Shown here: positions 37,635 through 55,118 of the stretch, piece after piece
How positions within the stretch are numbered: position 1 is the stretch's first letter
Layout of the letters: every line of letters begins with the position of its first letter
NCBI RefSeq assembly: GCF_016863135.1
Contig: NZ_BOOH01000066.1
Span: 1 to 64,000 of the forward strand
Origin: Planobispora longispora
GTDB taxonomy: Bacteria; Actinomycetota; Actinomycetes; Streptosporangiales; Streptosporangiaceae
Direction: 5' to 3'
Length of the DNA stretch: 64,000 bases
Notes under the pieces: model-generated
The model's database searches: none
The model's input: only the letters and a program-made list of their open reading frames with translations
Told to the model about the DNA's origin: nothing
Program-made: the position numbers and the translations under genes

Positions 37635-39209
<1,575 letters not shown>

Positions 39210-48759: not shown

Positions 48760-48984
48760 TCAGAGCGGTGTGCGGTCGTCGTCGAGGGGACCGGTGAGGG
48801 AAGTGGAGCGGTCCCGCCGGACCGCGTCGAGCAGGCCGGGAACCTCACTCAGTTCCCGGAGCTCGGCCTGGCACTCCTCACACGACATGAGGTGGCTTTC
48901 GAACGCCTGGTGGTCCTCTTCGTCCAGCACGCCGAGGGCATAGGCCGTCACGTCTTCATGCGCACCGCGTGAGGAGGGGGACAT
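48760..48984 (-). CDS. Short zinc-binding anti-sigma factor (ZAS domain)
   Basis: 74 aa. The ZAS/zf-HC2 motif H-x3-C-x2-C is at His31, Cys35 and Cys38 (FESHLMSCEECQAEL), preceded by HEDVTAYALGVLDEED. Unlike most anti-sigma factors it ends soon after the ZAS helix and has no membrane span, so it is a soluble, possibly redox-responsive regulator. Its ATG shares a base with the sigma-factor stop (TGATG), a coupled pair. It should hold the adjacent ECF sigma inactive. Confidence 0.85.
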   Translation of the reverse strand: MSPSSRGAHEDVTAYALGVLDEEDHQAFESHLMSCEECQAELRELSEVPGLLDAVRRDRSTSLTGPLDDDRTPL

Positions 48985-49538
48985 CAGCTCGCGACACCTC
49001 TCTCCTTCAGGATCCTGCGCAGGGCGCGGATCCCGTAGTAGAGCCGGGACTTGACCGTGCCGGGCGGGATCCCCAGGATCTCCGCCGCTTCACTAATCGT
49101 ACGGTCCCGTAGGTAAGTGTGCTCTATGACTTCCCGGTGTTCTTCGGACAGGTCTCGGAGCGCGTCGGTGACGATCATCGTTTCCAGCGCCTGCTCCGAC
49201 GCGTCGGGGACGGACACGGCGTCCGCGTCGGCGGGCTCGACCTCCTGAGGGCGAGCTCCTCGCTTACGCCGGCCGTCGATGACGATGCGGCGGGCGACGG
49301 TGAGGAGCCAGGCCCACAGCAGGCCCGGCTCGCGGTGCAACCTCCCCGCGTTTCGCCAGGCCCGGAGGATCGTCTCCTGAACGACGTCCTCGGCCCACTG
49401 CAGATCGTTGCCGGTGGCCTTGCGTACATGGCGGAGCAGGGAAGGGCCGAACTCCTGGTACAGCACCTCAACCAGGACGTCATCGTCGGTTTCCGCGCTC
49501 TCGAACCGGCTGTCGAGATGACGAGGCACGGGCAACAT
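48984..49538 (-). CDS. ECF sigma factor
   Basis: 184 aa from ATG 49538 with AAGGTG upstream; an ATG at 49577 is also in frame. Sigma region 2 reads WAEDVVQETILRAWRNAGRL through LLWAWLLTVARRIVIDGRR. Region 4 reads LSEEHREVIEHTYLRDRTIS and EAAEILGIPPGTVKSRLYYG. It belongs near the SigK/SigL-type ECFs with a ZAS anti-sigma. It is divergent from the lipoprotein operon, whose upstream region has an ECF-type promoter, so it probably drives that operon. Confidence 0.9.
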   Translation of the reverse strand: MLPVPRHLDSRFESAETDDDVLVEVLYQEFGPSLLRHVRKATGNDLQWAEDVVQETILRAWRNAGRLHREPGLLWAWLLTVARRIVIDGRRKRGARPQEVEPADADAVSVPDASEQALETMIVTDALRDLSEEHREVIEHTYLRDRTISEAAEILGIPPGTVKSRLYYGIRALRRILKERGVAS

Positions 49539-49613
49539 CTTTACACCTTCGTTATCAGCCCCGTATGCAACTTCCACAACTCCAGTTATTTCTGACTATC
49601 TCCTTACTTTCCG

Positions 49614-49639
49614 TGAACCGCCTTCCGGACAGTCGCGTA
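49614..49639 (+). promoter_or_regulatory. Candidate ECF-type promoter of the redox operon
   Basis: TGAACC (49614-49619), a 16-base spacer and CGTA (49636-49639) match the usual ECF pattern of a GAAC-type -35 and CGTA/CGTC -10. It lies about 50 bases before the lipoprotein ATG, with a small hairpin (GCCCGC/GCGGGC, 49655-49670) in the leader. Confidence 0.55.
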
Positions 49640-49690
49640 CCTCCGACCAAGTGCGCCCGCATCGGCGGGCCCTTGCGGAAAGGAACGACC

Positions 49691-50257
49691 ATGGCAACAC
49701 GGCACGTCCTATGGCCGGCCGGGGTTGTTGTCACCCTCGTGGCCCTGTCCGGATGCGCCGGAGGCGGCGCCTCCGGGCAGGACTACTCCGGACAGGCCTA
49801 CGCGACGTCGGAGGCGGTGAACGAGCACGCCGGCCACGCTTTCCTGAAGGTCTCGGCGGTGGGCGTCGTCGTCGACGCCCAGGGGCAGACCCTCTACCGC
49901 TTCGACGAGGACAAGCCCTCGGCGCCGAGCTGCGACGGGGAGTGCGCGGCCACGTGGCCGCCCGTCGTCACCGCGGGCGACGTCATGGTCGAGGGCATCG
50001 ACCAGGGCCTCGTCGGCACGGCCGAGCGGCAGGACGGCACCCTGCAGGTGACCCTCGGCGGCTGGCCGCTCTACCGGTTCTCCGGGGACGAGATCCCGGG
50101 AGACCTCAAAGGGCACGGCGCCGGTGGCACGTGGTTCGCGAGCTCCCCGGACGGGAAGCGGGCGCAGTCCCCGGACGGCGCCCCGACGCAGGCTCCGGAC
50201 ACCGCGCGGAGACAAGATCCGGATGCCGCGCGGACGCAGGCTCCGGACGACTACTGA
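49691..50257 (+). CDS. Lipoprotein with two YxFxxD repeats (PF03640 / COG4315 type)
   Basis: 188 aa. AAAGGA precedes ATG 49691. The lipobox LSGC puts the acylated Cys at residue 22. Two secreted-repeat units follow with YRFDED (69-74) and YRFSGD (128-133), the Y-x-F/W/Y-x-x-D signature, and a pair of cysteines (CDGEC, 81-85). The C-terminal tail is a Pro/Gln/Asp repeat (QAPD-type). The biochemical role of this family is unsettled. Here it opens an operon with haem and flavin/Fe-S partners, which suggests a redox role at the outer face of the membrane. Confidence 0.88.
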   Translation: MATRHVLWPAGVVVTLVALSGCAGGGASGQDYSGQAYATSEAVNEHAGHAFLKVSAVGVVVDAQGQTLYRFDEDKPSAPSCDGECAATWPPVVTAGDVMVEGIDQGLVGTAERQDGTLQVTLGGWPLYRFSGDEIPGDLKGHGAGGTWFASSPDGKRAQSPDGAPTQAPDTARRQDPDAARTQAPDDY

Positions 50258-50270
50258 CCCGGGCGACGCC

Positions 50271-50930
50271 ATGTTCAGGTCGCTGTTGCGCCGCTCCCGC
50301 CGTCCCGGCCGGTCCGGCGCTTTCGGAAGCGGAGAGCTGCTGCTGTTCGGGACCTTCCTCGCGGTCGCCGCGGTGGCGGTCGTGCTGGTCACACCGTCCG
50401 GCGGGCTGCCCGCGGCCTCGGAGGGCGGCACCCCCCAGGGCTGGGTCTCCACCCCGTACGGCCCGCTGAGCCCGGCCGACCGCGACTTCCTGGTCAAGGT
50501 CCGCCAGGCGGGCCTCTGGGAGATCCCCACCGGGCAGCAGGCCCAGCAGCGCGCCGACAGCAAGCGGGTCAAGGAGGTCGGCATGCACCTGATGACCGAC
50601 CACCTCAAGCTCGACGCCCAGGTCCTCTCGGTCGCCGGCCAGCTCGGCGTGGTGCTGCCCAGCCAGGCGAGCGCGGACCAGCAGCGCTGGATGGGGGAGC
50701 TGTCGTCCGCCTTCGGCGCCGAATACGACCGGATCTTCGCCAACCGGCTCCGCCAAGCTCACGGGAAGGTCTTCACAGCGGTTGCCGCCGTACGGTCCGG
50801 CACTCGTAACGATCTCATCCGATCCTTCGCCCAGCGGGCGGTGGAGGTGGTCATGAAGCACATGACCCTGCTGGAGAGCACGGGGCTGGTCGACTACACC
50901 GCCCTGCCCGAACCTCCCGCGCCAAAGTGA
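50271..50930 (+). CDS. DUF4142 protein, membrane-anchored
   Basis: 219 aa. ATG 50271 lies 13 bases after the previous stop. An Arg-rich start and one span (about 22-42) are followed by a four-helix ferritin-like DUF4142 domain: LSPADRDFLVKVRQAGLWEI, SKRVKEVGMHLMTDHLKLD and VVMKHMTLLESTG. His and Asp/Glu residues in the helices could bind metal as in ferritin-like folds, but this is not shown. Second gene of the operon, probably outside the membrane. Confidence 0.85.
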   Translation: MFRSLLRRSRRPGRSGAFGSGELLLFGTFLAVAAVAVVLVTPSGGLPAASEGGTPQGWVSTPYGPLSPADRDFLVKVRQAGLWEIPTGQQAQQRADSKRVKEVGMHLMTDHLKLDAQVLSVAGQLGVVLPSQASADQQRWMGELSSAFGAEYDRIFANRLRQAHGKVFTAVAAVRSGTRNDLIRSFAQRAVEVVMKHMTLLESTGLVDYTALPEPPAPK

Positions 50931-50959
50931 CTCCCGCGCCACAGTGAGGAGAGAACCCC

Positions 50960-52174
50960 ATGAAACGCAAACGCATGAGACGCCTGTACGTGCCGCTGTC
51001 CGCGCTCGCCCTGGCGGCCGGGGCGCTGACCGCCACCACGGGCCCAGCCGCCGCCGACCACTGCGACCCCGCGGAACAGGGCCAGGACAGCCAGCAGAAC
51101 CAGGACAACCGGTCAGGCCGGAACGGTCAGCAGGACCAGGACGGCCAGCAGGGCCAAAATGACCAGCGGCAACAGCAGGATCAGGACGGCCGGCAGGGTC
51201 AGAGCGGCCGGCAGAACCAGCAGGGCTCGCAGAACCAGCAGAGTCCAGAGGATCCGCAGGACCCGCAGGACGGGCAGGACGGGCAGGACGGGCAGGCGGA
51301 GGACTGTGCGGATCTCGGTCCGTTCCCGCAGGATTTCGTCGACATCCGGCAGACGCAGCCGAACGTCCAGACGCCCCGGACACGGCGCGGAGGCTCCGCC
51401 GGGAGCTTCGTCTCCCGCTGCGGCCGCAACCAGAACGGCCACCGCAACTCGGACAACTTCATCGTCGCCCCGGGCGTGACCAACGGCGCCCACCACGTGC
51501 ACGACTACGTCGGCAACCTGTCCACCGACGCCTTCTCCACCGACGCCAGCCTGGCGGCGGCGGGGACGACGTGCGCGTTCGGCGACCGCTCGACCTACTT
51601 CTGGCCGGTCCTGCGGGACCGTACGGTCGATGCCAACACCCAGGACCCGGACGGCAACGTGGGACGCATCCTGACCCCCCGCGTGGCGATCATGCAGTTC
51701 CGGGGGAACCCGGTGGCCAAGGTCACCGCGATGCCGCGGTTCCTCAGGCTGATCACCGGTGACGCCAAGGCCGCGACCAACGGCGGTGCGAACGCCCGGG
51801 CCCAGTGGACCTGCAGCGGGTTCACCAACCGGGTGCTGACCGACAAGTATCCGCTCTGTCCCCGGGGCAGCCTGGTCATGCGGATCCTGGACTTCCCGAG
51901 CTGCTGGGACGGGCAGAACACCGACAGCGCCAACCACCGCACGCACGTCCTGTTCCCCGATGAGAGCGGCGCCTGTCCCGCCGGGACGCGGGCCGTTCCG
52001 CAGCTGCGGATGACCCTGGCCTACGCCGCGCCGTCCACCCCCTCCTTCGCGCTGGACGCCTTCCCCGAGCAACTGCACAACCCGGTCACCGATCACGCCG
52101 ACTTCGCGAACGTGATGCCGGACCGGCTCATGCGGTCCGTAGTGAACTGCATCAACCAAGGCCGTCGCTGCTGA
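50960..52174 (+). CDS. Secreted DUF1996 protein with a Gln-rich linker
   Basis: 404 aa. A signal peptide (about 1-33, ending AAA) is followed by about 80 residues of Gln/Asp/Gly repeats, then DUF1996 (about 120-404). That domain has DNFIVAPGVTNGAHHVHDYV with paired histidines, several Cys (SRCGRNQNGH, WTCSGF, YPLCPRGS, FPSCWDGQN) and HRTHVLFP. DUF1996 domains occur in secreted proteins of actinobacteria and fungi and have no assigned function; the conserved His cluster hints at metal binding. Third gene of the redox operon. Confidence 0.87.
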   Translation: MKRKRMRRLYVPLSALALAAGALTATTGPAAADHCDPAEQGQDSQQNQDNRSGRNGQQDQDGQQGQNDQRQQQDQDGRQGQSGRQNQQGSQNQQSPEDPQDPQDGQDGQDGQAEDCADLGPFPQDFVDIRQTQPNVQTPRTRRGGSAGSFVSRCGRNQNGHRNSDNFIVAPGVTNGAHHVHDYVGNLSTDAFSTDASLAAAGTTCAFGDRSTYFWPVLRDRTVDANTQDPDGNVGRILTPRVAIMQFRGNPVAKVTAMPRFLRLITGDAKAATNGGANARAQWTCSGFTNRVLTDKYPLCPRGSLVMRILDFPSCWDGQNTDSANHRTHVLFPDESGACPAGTRAVPQLRMTLAYAAPSTPSFALDAFPEQLHNPVTDHADFANVMPDRLMRSVVNCINQGRRC

Positions 52175-52228
52175 CCTCGTACCCGTCCCGGAGCGGCACC
52201 CTCTCCGCTCGGACGATGAGGAGGCACA

Positions 52229-53626
52229 GTGGACGACACCGATTGGAACGCGGCCCGCGGAACGAACGCTCCGGTGTACTACCTGGGCGGGCCGGCGCGC
52301 CGGCTGGGCGAGCCGGTCGCCGAACCGGAGGGTCCGCCGCTCGGCCCGGACGAACCGGCACGACCCGACGAGCCGGTGCGACACACGGGGACGCCGGTCC
52401 ACAGGATCGGCGAACCGCCGGGCGCCCCGGGAGAGCATCCCGCGGGAGGACGCGCTCGAAGAGAACACCTCCCGGGTGAACGGGGCCCGGCAGAACACCC
52501 CCGGAATGAACGCGTCCAGGTGGGATACGCCCCGGGAACACACCTCGCGAGTGAACGCGTCCAGGTGGGACACGCCGCGGTAGAACACAGCCGAAGTGAA
52601 CGCACCCGGCTGGAACGTGTCCTGGGAGAACAGTCCGATGTCCCGGACGAGCGCGAACGCGACGCGGACAGGCCGCGGCGCGGACAGGCGCGGCACTCCC
52701 GGCAGGAGGCGTCGGGGCTCGACCGGAGATCCAACCGGGTCATGCTCGGGGCGGGGATCACGGTGGTCACCGTCGGCATGCTGATGATGGGCAGGACCGA
52801 GGCGGGACTGCGGGCCTCCGCGGCGGCGTGGGGATTCCTCTCCTTCTTCTCCGGTGTGCTGGCGCTCGTCGCGCTGACCGCCACCGTCGCGCTCGGGCTG
52901 TTCTCCGCCGACCGGGTCGTCCTCCCGGCCCTGGGCAGGATCCGCACCCAGCTCCTGCACCGGTCGGCGGCGCTGGTCGGCATGGCGTTCCTGGCCACGC
53001 ACATCCTGATGAAGATCTCCGAAGGCCGGGCCCCCGCGGCGGCCGCGGTGGTCCCGACGTCCGCGCCGACCATGGCGATCGGGTTCGGCGTGGTCGCGTC
53101 CGACGTGATGGTGCTGATCTTCGCCACCGGGATCGCCCGAGCCGGGTTCGCGGACAGCGGCAAGCCGTGGGTGTGGCGGTTGCTGCACGGCTCCGCCTAC
53201 CTCGCCTGGCCTACGGCGATCATGCACGGGCTGAGCGCGGGCCGATCGCCCGCCTCCTGGGTGAGCTGGAGCTACGTGGCCTGCCTGGTGGCGGTGGGCG
53301 CGGCACTGCTGATCAGGGTCCTCTCCGTACTGCAGACCAGGCGTGCCGCGGCCGGAGCCGAGCCCGCGGCCGAGCCCGCGGTCGCGCGTGCCACCGCGGA
53401 TCGATCCGGTACGGCGGCGCGGACGAATACAGCGGCGAACACAGCGATGAATACGGCGATGAATACGGCGAATGCGGCGGATCCGGCCTCGCTCACGAGC
53501 ATCGTCGGCCGCGTCCCGCGCCGGGCCCGGGGGAGCCGGACCGGCACGGACAGCGGGGCCGGTCCGGAAGGACAGACGGGCACCGAGGGCCGGGTGGCCC
53601 GCCGGCGGATCGGAGGCATGGGATGA
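52229..53626 (+). CDS. Ferric-reductase/NOX-like bis-haem membrane protein without a dehydrogenase domain
   Basis: 465 aa, GTG start after GGAGG. A charged, repetitive cytoplasmic N-terminus (about 1-170, with RNERVQVGY/SERVQVGH repeats) precedes about six membrane spans. His244 and His258 lie on one span (H-x13-H), and His320 and His333 on a later one (H-x12-H). This is the spacing that holds two stacked haems in ferric reductases and NADPH oxidases. No FAD or NAD domain follows, only a low-complexity tail. The dehydrogenase is therefore expected in trans, most likely the next gene's product. Confidence 0.85.
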   Translation: MDDTDWNAARGTNAPVYYLGGPARRLGEPVAEPEGPPLGPDEPARPDEPVRHTGTPVHRIGEPPGAPGEHPAGGRARREHLPGERGPAEHPRNERVQVGYAPGTHLASERVQVGHAAVEHSRSERTRLERVLGEQSDVPDERERDADRPRRGQARHSRQEASGLDRRSNRVMLGAGITVVTVGMLMMGRTEAGLRASAAAWGFLSFFSGVLALVALTATVALGLFSADRVVLPALGRIRTQLLHRSAALVGMAFLATHILMKISEGRAPAAAAVVPTSAPTMAIGFGVVASDVMVLIFATGIARAGFADSGKPWVWRLLHGSAYLAWPTAIMHGLSAGRSPASWVSWSYVACLVAVGAALLIRVLSVLQTRRAAAGAEPAAEPAVARATADRSGTAARTNTAANTAMNTAMNTANAADPASLTSIVGRVPRRARGSRTGTDSGAGPEGQTGTEGRVARRRIGGMG

Positions 53627-53673
53627 GCTCTCACCGGGTCCCCCAGGTCGAACAGGCAGGAGGCACGGGATGA
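53623..53673 (+). CDS. 16-codon mini-cistron between the bis-haem and NuoF-like genes
   Basis: MSSHRVPQVEQAGG plus two residues. Its ATG overlaps the stop of the upstream gene and its TGA overlaps the ATG of the next (ATGA at both ends). HRVPQV repeats as YRVPQV at the start of the NuoF-like protein; the DNA CCGGGTCCCCCAGGTC is duplicated. It is either a relic of a start-region duplication or a coupling device that passes ribosomes on. Confidence 0.4.
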   Translation: MSSHRVPQVEQAGGTG

Positions 53674-55118
53674 TCCCCTACCGGGTCCCCCAGGTCAGAC
53701 GGGTAGGACCGGCCAGGCTCACCGCCGGGCTGGACGCCTCTCGCCGGATGGACCTGTCCGCGCATCGCGCCATGCACGGCACCGCGCCGAAGCTGGACGC
53801 CCGGGAGCTGGCCGAGCTGGCGGACGCCGTGGACCTGCGGGGCCGGGGCGGCGCGGCGTTCCCCTTCGCCCGCAAGCTGCGGGCGGTGGCCGCCCACCGT
53901 TCGGAGAGCGCCGTCCTGGTCAACGCGGCCGAGGGCGAACCGGCCAGCGGCAAGGACACGATGCTGCTCACCAGGACGCCGCACCTGGTCATCGAGGGCG
54001 CGCTGCTCGCCGCGGGCGCGCTCGGCGCGCGGCGGATCGTGATCGCCGCCGCCGAGGGCGGGATGGGGCACGCGTCGGCGGTCGCCGCGGTCGAGGAGCG
54101 GGGGGCGGGGGACCGGATCCGCGTGGCGGCCATCCCCGAACGGTTCATCTCGGGCGAGGGCGGCGCGCTGGTCAGGGCGGTGAACGGGCGCGGCGGCGCA
54201 CCGCCGGGCCGCAAGGTCAGGGCCAGCGACAGCGGGGTGGACGGCCTGCCCACGCTGTTGTCGAACGCCGAGACCTTCGCCCAGCTCGCGGTGCTCGCGA
54301 CCCTGGGGCCCGAGCACTACGCCGACGTCGGGACCGCGCGGGAGCCCGGGACCGTCCTGCTCACCGTGGGCGGCTCGGCGGTCGCTCCGGCGGTGGTGGA
54401 GGTGGAGACCGGGACGCCGCTGCCCGCCGTACTGGAGGCGTGCCGGGCGTCGCCGGGCGAGGGCGTGCTGGTCGGCGGGTACCACGGCGCGTGGATCCAC
54501 CCCGGAGCCGCGGCCGTCGCGCCGGTCTCCCGGCAGGGGATCGAGGAGGCGGGCGGGCGGCTCGGCGCCGGGATCGTGCTGCCGCTCGACGGTGAGACCT
54601 GCCCGCTGGGCGAGACGCTCAGGGTGGCGCGCTATCTCGCCGCGCAGTCGTCGGGGCAGTGCGGGCCCTGCCGGCTGGGGTTGCCGGACGTCGCCCGCAC
54701 CCTGGCGGACCTCGTCGAGGGTTCGGCCACCGCCCTGGACGGCCTGCGCCGCCGGGCGGCCGGGGTCAGGGGCAGGGGCGCGTGCTCCCATCCCGACGGG
54801 ACGTCCGGGTTCGTGCTGTCGGCGCTGGCGGCGTTCCCCGACGACATCCAGGAGCACCTGCTCCGCGGGAGCTGCGGCCGTCCGGTCCTGGGCGTGCTGC
54901 CCGTCCCGGAGCGGGAGCCGGAGCCCGAGGTCCGTCTGACCGTCGACTGGACCCGCTGCCAGGGGCACGGCCTGTGCGCGAAGCTCGCCCCCGACCTCGT
55001 CCACCTCGACGAGCACGGCTACCCGGTCTTCGCCCGCGACGCCGTACCCCCGCAGCTGCGGCGCCTGGCCCGCCGGGCCGTGGAGATGTGCCCGGCCCTG
55101 GCCCTGCGGATGGCGTGA
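53670..55118 (+). CDS. NuoF-like NADH dehydrogenase subunit fused to a ferredoxin
   Basis: 482 aa from ATG 53670. The FMN/NADH region has DLRGRGGAAFPFARKLRAV and NAAEGEPASGKD, then SNAETFAQLA, as in NuoF. An SLBB-like part follows. The N3-type cluster region reads SSGQCGPCRLG and GACSHPDG, where the first of the usual cysteines is Ser. The last about 65 residues are a ferredoxin with CQGHGLC and CPALAL (C-x-x-H-x-x-C, 3Fe type). It can plausibly take electrons from NADH through FMN to its own ferredoxin and on to the bis-haem membrane protein encoded upstream. Confidence 0.88.
   Translation: MIPYRVPQVRRVGPARLTAGLDASRRMDLSAHRAMHGTAPKLDARELAELADAVDLRGRGGAAFPFARKLRAVAAHRSESAVLVNAAEGEPASGKDTMLLTRTPHLVIEGALLAAGALGARRIVIAAAEGGMGHASAVAAVEERGAGDRIRVAAIPERFISGEGGALVRAVNGRGGAPPGRKVRASDSGVDGLPTLLSNAETFAQLAVLATLGPEHYADVGTAREPGTVLLTVGGSAVAPAVVEVETGTPLPAVLEACRASPGEGVLVGGYHGAWIHPGAAAVAPVSRQGIEEAGGRLGAGIVLPLDGETCPLGETLRVARYLAAQSSGQCGPCRLGLPDVARTLADLVEGSATALDGLRRRAAGVRGRGACSHPDGTSGFVLSALAAFPDDIQEHLLRGSCGRPVLGVLPVPEREPEPEVRLTVDWTRCQGHGLCAKLAPDLVHLDEHGYPVFARDAVPPQLRRLARRAVEMCPALALRMA

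Follow-up and report, generated by a model that had tools for sequence, protein, structure and literature searches.

Gene clusters for flavinylation systems were surveyed by Meheust et al. (2021, eLife; PMC8238504) and, according to the parts of that study on which we draw, 31 of the 'MsrQ-like' clusters contain a NuoF-like protein; clusters of this type are widespread in Actinobacteria, some of them carry an iron transporter, and NAD(P)H-driven electron transfer to acceptors outside the cell has been predicted for them. Here we describe a related operon of Planobispora longispora, located in a stretch of 64,000 nucleotides (contig NZ_BOOH01000066.1, positions 1 to 64,000; hereafter the window). 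In this operon, five plus-strand genes for three exported proteins, a membrane protein and a NuoF-like protein fused to a ferredoxin (NuoF-Fd) face a divergent gene pair for an extracytoplasmic function (ECF) sigma factor and an anti-sigma factor. Like the published clusters, it combines a PF01794-type, presumably two-haem membrane protein with a neighbouring NuoF-like protein of the PF10589 type. In the clusters as portrayed in those parts of the study (PMC8238504), however, an apbE gene and a gene for an FMN-binding protein are typical, whereas neither was found at loci of the window type or in the window's genome, and the window type adds the ferredoxin fused to NuoF, the DUF4142/DUF1996/lipoprotein/BBE gene set and an ECF-type promoter-like site. 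We judge it probable, if only just, that this operon encodes a split transmembrane exporter of electrons that works without ApbE and is controlled by an ECF switch of the thiol type, a reading built on features of the sequence, namely the architecture of the locus, its conservation, a four-histidine pattern, the promoter-like site and the lack of ApbE and FMN_bind matches.

Gene set and its conservation

An earlier note, made from the DNA letters alone, had proposed a tight plus-strand series of five genes and a divergent ECF sigma/anti-sigma pair, and analysis of open reading frames (ORFs) and Pfam searches found its gene list, coordinates and orientations all correct; the start of the sigma gene was set by our own gene caller. 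The features are:

48760..48984, minus strand: zinc (ZAS-type) anti-sigma factor, 74 amino acids, HxxxCxxC; PF13490 (zf-HC2), 34.7 bits, cut-off 22.2
48984..49538, minus strand: ECF sigma factor; PF04542/PF04545 (sigma regions 2 and 4), nearest NCBIfam model PRK09645
49614..49641, plus strand: ECF-type promoter-like site TGAACC-N16-CGTACC, directed at the operon
49691..50257, plus strand: PF03640 lipoprotein with a CxxxC pair; Lipoprotein_15, 89.4 bits in two stretches
50271..50930, plus strand: DUF4142 protein; PF13628, 80.7 bits, with a single N-terminal hydrophobic segment by hydropathy
50960..52174, plus strand: DUF1996 protein, probably exported; PF09362, 89.3 bits
52229..53626, plus strand: FRD/MsrQ-like membrane protein, 465 amino acids; H244-x13-H258 and H320-x12-H333, sub-threshold PF01794
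53670..55118, plus strand: fusion of a NuoF-like FMN/Fe-S protein and a ferredoxin with CxxHxxC...CP; PF01512, PF10589, PF13459

In the following, the membrane protein and the NuoF-Fd fusion are called the pair, and the exported set of lipoprotein, DUF4142 and DUF1996 proteins is called the cassette. Fifty related loci were obtained by scanning GTDB contigs with the NuoF-Fd protein by exact peptide patterns, a procedure biased to close relatives, and genes were counted by applying family hidden Markov models, themselves trained on these loci, to ORFs of all six frames up to 8 kb from the fusion; gene calls in relatives came from our own codon-bias script. The closest match was Planobispora rosea, with a NuoF-Fd protein that is 95% identical. 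Besides NuoF-Fd (50 of 50), the loci contained the membrane protein (47), DUF1996 (42), DUF4142 (41), the anti-sigma factor (40), the sigma factor (39), a BBE oxidase (28) and the lipoprotein (10). DUF4142, DUF1996, the membrane protein and the fusion were all present in 37 of the 39 sigma-bearing loci, the exceptions being L027, without DUF1996, and L044, without DUF4142. The 11 loci without a sigma gene comprise four from metagenome-assembled genomes (MAGs), three from Streptomyces and four that are truncated or broken (L035, L041, L055 and L056 are the truncated or broken members of the set). Conserved co-occurrence across relatives, a check proposed in the earlier note, was therefore found with gene order kept, and an order that recurs in tens of genomes is not due to chance.

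A 4-base overlap joins the two genes of the pair in 20 of 46 relatives; in the window, 43 bases separate them. The junction in the window also carries an imperfect 47-bp tandem repeat (53623-53716; its copies agree at 33 of 47 bases, and at 23 of the first 27), the first copy of which encodes a 16-codon ORF ahead of the NuoF start.

Predicted membrane conduit, NuoF-ferredoxin fusion and ApbE

The four histidines of the membrane protein, with their spacings Hx13H and Hx12H, were invariant in 29 of 29 sequences, and the same x13/x12 spacing is known for the haem-ligand histidines of NOX proteins. No Pfam match at E<=0.1 was obtained for the window protein, which reached PF01794 (Ferric_reduct) with E 0.17 and 12.4 bits (cut-off 28); 16 of the 29 members matched at E<=1, the best with E 0.00018. 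When the family profile was compared by hhalign with that of ten relatives of the unfused type, nine of them from ApbE-bearing loci, a probability of 99.8% and an E value of 4.9e-29 were obtained with the four histidines aligned; all ten keep these histidines, and both of the two that were scanned exceeded the cut-off for PF01794, with 40.7 and 33.9 bits. Because these relatives match the profile and pass the cut-off, homology of the window protein to PF01794 can be assumed, and a two-haem FRD/MsrQ-like conduit, as judged from sequence, is well supported, which bears out the bis-haem ferric-reductase/NOX-like membrane protein proposed earlier. Searching PDB profiles for the membrane protein returned nothing relevant. 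Members of the NOX/ferric reductase family, which share the four invariant histidines and their spacing, have a fused FAD/NAD domain; in contrast, no Pfam match to a FAD/NAD(P)H domain of the NOX/FRE kind was found in the 465-residue window protein, and NuoF-Fd is encoded next to it instead. The earlier proposal of a split oxidoreductase in which NuoF-Fd replaces that domain thus finds support at the level of predicted architecture. Two membrane proteins of relatives (L046:5806-7977 and L111:7357-9903) have C-terminal low-complexity tails of several hundred residues, and the ApbE-bearing locus L158 contains two FRD-type membrane genes, one of them with a long C-terminal extension.

Pfam recognised Complex1_51K (102.9 bits), NADH_4Fe-4S (62.8 bits, cut-off 23.5) and Fer4_15 (51.1 bits) in the fusion. 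The first two domains and the FMN motifs, that is the GRGG of the FMN loop and N..E.E, are shared with NuoF and HydB. The fusion differs from them by the loss of the first cluster cysteine and of the second glutamate of the GEE motif and by its C-terminal ferredoxin, and neither NuoE nor NuoG is encoded beside it. Against TIGR01959 it scored 158 bits (equivalog cut-off 559), and its best PDB match was 7p5h. Of the four cysteines of the cluster, the first was lacking from all 34 NuoF-like proteins examined; both canonical controls, the NuoF of the same genome and a protein that we take to be HoxF-like, have it. This cysteine is also missing in the NuoF-like proteins of L109, L110 and L114, which have no adjoining match to the membrane partner and stand beside genes for 360-390 amino acids, presumably acyl-CoA dehydrogenases. 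In the fused ferredoxin, the three cysteines of CxxHxxC...CP are invariant in 22 aligned sequences; elsewhere in the window, a minus-strand stretch (37656-37856) has 41% identity to this domain. That the fusion might be a stray complex I subunit was rejected, as the NuoF and the HoxF-like protein of this genome are encoded at separate loci.

All 19 fused members lack the second glutamate of the GEE motif; it is present in both controls and in 11 of 12 unfused relatives, the exception (L099) being the branch nearest to the fused clade in the NuoF tree. In complex I, this residue discriminates against NADPH, and NADPH or another donor would be compatible with its loss; a literature search on the nucleotide specificity of NuoF yielded no paper. 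With this glutamate lost in every fused member and the cluster cysteine in every NuoF-like protein examined, NADH is not a safe choice of electron source; as judged from sequence, its role as donor is doubtful and the weakest part of the earlier interpretation.

Of the 12 loci whose NuoF relative is unfused, ApbE was detected in 10; the group includes L106, in which neither a membrane gene nor ApbE was found, and L100, with the pair and no ApbE. The unfused loci inspected contain ApbE, a membrane protein, NuoF and, at times, a separate ferredoxin; in L101, L103 and L160 a ferredoxin of 64-90 amino acids (by Pfam for L101 only) is encoded separately where the window has the fusion. It is this unfused layout that Meheust et al. 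(2021; PMC8238504) surveyed as MsrQ-like/NuoF-like flavinylation clusters. No ApbE was found at any of the 57 loci of the fused clade, which include short ones. The window's genome, which is 99.96% complete, gave no match to ApbE or to FMN_bind (PF04205), whereas 7 and 4 of 14 control genomes, respectively, did; the operon as a flavinylated system as such was therefore rejected. ApbE occurs in 32 of 61 genomes drawn from the Streptosporangiaceae, so its absence is not peculiar to the genome of the window. In a FastTree phylogeny of the NuoF domain, rooted on the NuoF of the same genome and weak at some deeper nodes, the fused clade (support 1.0) is nested in mostly ApbE-linked unfused lineages, and the simplest reading of these sequences is that it lost ApbE and gained the cassette.

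Sigma factor, anti-sigma factor and promoter-like site

SigL-RslA of Mycobacterium tuberculosis resembles the divergent pair of the window in combining an ECF sigma factor with a zinc anti-sigma factor of the HxxxCxxC type and, as described in the portions of the report used here, oxidation of RslA leads to loss of zinc and lower affinity (PMC2877774). RslA is membrane-associated, whereas the window anti-sigma factor has 74 amino acids, with the zinc finger at residues 8-39, and by its length seems too small for the RslA plan. HxxxCxxC is retained in 37 of 40 detected anti-sigma relatives, the remainder including partial matches, and by analogy a zinc-thiol switch of the RslA kind may operate in the window. 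The sigma factor scored 193.6 bits against PRK09645, below the cut-off of 202.

Of 41 loci with a sigma gene (39 from the 50-locus set, plus L112 and L113), 40 carry a TGAACC-N-CGTA site between that gene and the operon, directed to the operon. The consensus of SigL promoters is likewise of the TGAACC type. The spacer measures 16 bases in 39 loci and 17 in one, while its letters vary; in the window the site (49614-49641) lies about 50 bases upstream of the lipoprotein gene. The same pattern facing the sigma gene was not found at the sigma-bearing loci. A looser pattern matched 70 of 1640 random control windows of 290 bases, which come from the loci themselves and may overlap promoter regions. 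In the window's genome the exact pattern (spacer 15-16) occurs nine times, versus 1+1 for a reversed-pattern control; of the remaining eight sites, six fall within called genes, and L164 alone has a gene starting on its own strand at most 100 bases away. A broad regulon was rejected because exact sites are few and mostly intragenic, in a search that would miss weaker sites, and for the same reason the sigma factor looks nearly dedicated to this operon. The ECF control suggested in the earlier note thus gains support from the conserved site.

A second described system, the RpoE1 operon of Sinorhizobium meliloti, also combines an ECF sigma factor with a secreted PF03640-type protein, 'lipoprotein 15', for which a role in sigma control was suggested; unlike in the window, neither the pair nor DUF4142 or DUF1996 is mentioned in the sections of that paper available here (PMC3511301).

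Exported proteins and the proposed route of the electrons

All three cassette proteins have invariant residues: C22, C81 and C85 in 11 lipoprotein sequences, and H111, H164 and H197 in 20 of 20 aligned DUF4142 sequences. In DUF1996 all 35 aligned sequences keep H179, H181, H329, H373, H379 and D381, together with eight cysteines. A putative signal peptide of DUF1996 was recognised by eye at the N-terminus, with no segment above the hydropathy threshold. At E<=0.1, PDB searches returned nothing for the lipoprotein and DUF1996, and a single irrelevant match for DUF4142. With the fungal DUF1996 pattern, as given in the excerpts at hand, these DUF1996 proteins have HxH-x3-G, DxSxY, CP and HxD in common, whereas spacings and the GW tail differ (PMC4738358). 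Among 296 drawn genomes, DUF1996 was present in 8 of 8 with a fusion match above 600 bits and in 37 of 288 others, a co-occurrence to which little weight is given, as six of the 8 belong to one genus and no pair gene was found in the ten regions retrieved around DUF1996 copies of the other seven genomes. In L149 and L153, DUF1996 adjoins a divergent lipoprotein-like gene of 142-165 amino acids, with no pair gene in the region and, a few genes off, what we take to be a glutamine-synthetase-like gene.

In many relatives a BBE-type flavoprotein accompanies the operon: in 28 of 50 loci its gene is no more than 8 kb away from the fusion, and in 27 it comes directly 3' of the fusion, with a gap of 53-132 bases in 25. 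A Tat-like start and the cysteine motif were present in 28 of 28 proteins checked (27 locus proteins and the copy of the window's genome), and RSGGHS in 27 of 28; the two motifs are linked to bicovalent FAD. Pfam confirmed two of these proteins (FAD_binding_4 and BBE), and EncM and carbohydrate oxidases are among the nearest relatives of known structure. BBE, with its own covalent flavin, may stand in place of the ApbE-made flavin. The absence of ApbE and FMN_bind and the BBE flavoprotein of relatives, which lay outside the view of the earlier note, are the most informative facts.

From these data we infer cofactors, direction, donor, acceptors, signal and history of the favoured exporter as follows. 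The FMN of the NuoF-like domain would be reduced from the cytosol, by NADPH, NADH or some other carrier, and electrons would then pass through the three-cysteine Fe-S site of this domain to the fused three-cysteine ferredoxin, and on to the inner and then the outer haem of the membrane protein. The outer haem would deliver them to extracytoplasmic acceptors from the same operon, DUF4142, DUF1996 (probably a metal-site protein) and, where present, the YxFxxD lipoprotein, with the Tat-type BBE flavoprotein as a further outside acceptor in many relatives. The ancestral outside carrier would have been an ApbE-flavinylated FMN protein, until the fused clade lost ApbE and took up the cassette. The presumably cytosolic zinc-thiol anti-sigma factor would hold the sigma factor, and the operon would be fired from its one conserved promoter, most likely upon thiol oxidation or zinc loss. 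We favour this exporter because of the gene set, the four histidines, the 4-bp overlap, the tree, the ApbE pattern, the separate ferredoxins of three unfused loci, the promoter-like site, the rearranged locus L112 and BBE, and because it accords with the MsrQ-like/NuoF-like prediction (PMC8238504) and the zinc-thiol switch of RslA (PMC2877774), each as presented in the parts of the source used here. A more specific version is offered only tentatively, in which the ApbE-modified FMN carrier was replaced by DUF1996 as a histidine-rich metalloredox protein and DUF4142 as a helical protein, together with a self-flavinylating BBE in many species, and NuoF-Fd would be an NADPH- or ferredoxin-type entry with two three-cysteine clusters.

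Several observations weigh against the exporter. The GEE glutamate is lost from its nucleotide site, and L112 is the single sigma-bearing locus without a promoter-like site. The pair occurs alone in four MAG loci (L040, L046, L047 and L050) and likewise without the cassette in L096-L098 and L111, so the cassette is not obligatory. The lipoprotein is confined to one fifth of the 50 loci, and no known redox cofactor was recognised in the lipoprotein, DUF4142 or DUF1996. DUF1996 is also found away from the pair, and the 70%-identical BBE copy in the window's genome is unlinked to the operon. Finally, the direction of flow is not readable from sequence. Given the rarity of the lipoprotein and the eight loci with the pair alone, the part suggested earlier for the exported proteins, as electron acceptors or binders of the substrate, is put here in conditional form.

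Two alternatives have, in our estimate, an equal and rather low probability. A NOX/FRE-like enzyme could pass haem electrons directly to O2, Fe(III) or Cu(II), the exported proteins handling the product or binding metal. The Hx13H/Hx12H pattern and the conserved histidines of DUF1996 and DUF4142 would suit it, as would the iron transporter of some MsrQ-like clusters (PMC8238504) and the behaviour of fungal DUF1996 deletion mutants, reported in the excerpts to be more sensitive to oxidation and to several metals, not to copper (PMC4738358); however, the membrane protein lacks a recognisable FAD/NAD domain of the NOX/FRE kind, and no metal transporter was recognised by eye among the flanking genes inspected, no scan being made. 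Equally, the lipoprotein, DUF4142 and DUF1996 could be envelope-stress proteins that share a promoter with the pair and exchange no electrons with it, as the separate occurrence of pair and cassette in several loci and the role suggested for 'lipoprotein 15' (PMC3511301, in the sections available) would allow. Under mere co-regulation, however, one would not expect DUF4142-DUF1996 to stay near the pair in the Streptomyces loci L051-L053, where the order, with Pfam applied to L051, is DUF4142-DUF1996, a sigma-type gene of another kind, a presumably PucR-like gene, the pair and the lipoprotein, nor in L112, where the pair is inverted and still adjoins lipoprotein-DUF4142-DUF1996 with a sigma gene nearby.

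Reverse flow is somewhat less probable again: BBE or DUF1996 would oxidise a substrate outside, and electrons would run through the haems to the NuoF-like protein and NAD(P)+ or a cytosolic partner. The frequency of BBE near the fusion, its solved oxidase relatives and three-cysteine clusters, which would suit a higher-potential chain, speak for this direction, whereas BBE lies outside the window operon, the nucleotide site is altered and FRD-family proteins usually move electrons outward. Envelope thiol or methionine-sulfoxide repair, in which the pair would supply reductant to a thioredoxin- or MsrQ-type protein, is improbable, since its thiol partners occur in one locus only and the DUF1996 cysteines may be structural disulfides, although the related RslA senses thiol oxidation (PMC2877774, in the portions used) and in that one locus, L095 (8196-13004), the pair is followed by a thioredoxin/AhpC-TSA-like and a DsbD_TM-like gene (23.9 bits, below the cut-off of 27.1), possibly a thiol version of the system.

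The exporter had been called uncharacterised, which needs qualification: its kind was already predicted as MsrQ-like/NuoF-like pairs in the parts of the survey consulted (PMC8238504). No description of this operon was found in the open-licence PMC literature, judged by title and start of abstract, with subscription journals outside the scope; as far as these searches go, the ApbE-free branch, the fused donor, the cassette and the promoter are new. The operon gives three unexplained families, DUF1996, DUF4142 and PF03640, a common context and a testable electron source. A lineage seemingly without flavinylation and yet with a membrane conduit tests how interchangeable the outside carriers are, and the single-promoter ECF switch offers a handle for turning the system on. 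If the more specific version were true, DUF1996, which also occurs in fungi, would represent a new class of extracytoplasmic redox metalloprotein.

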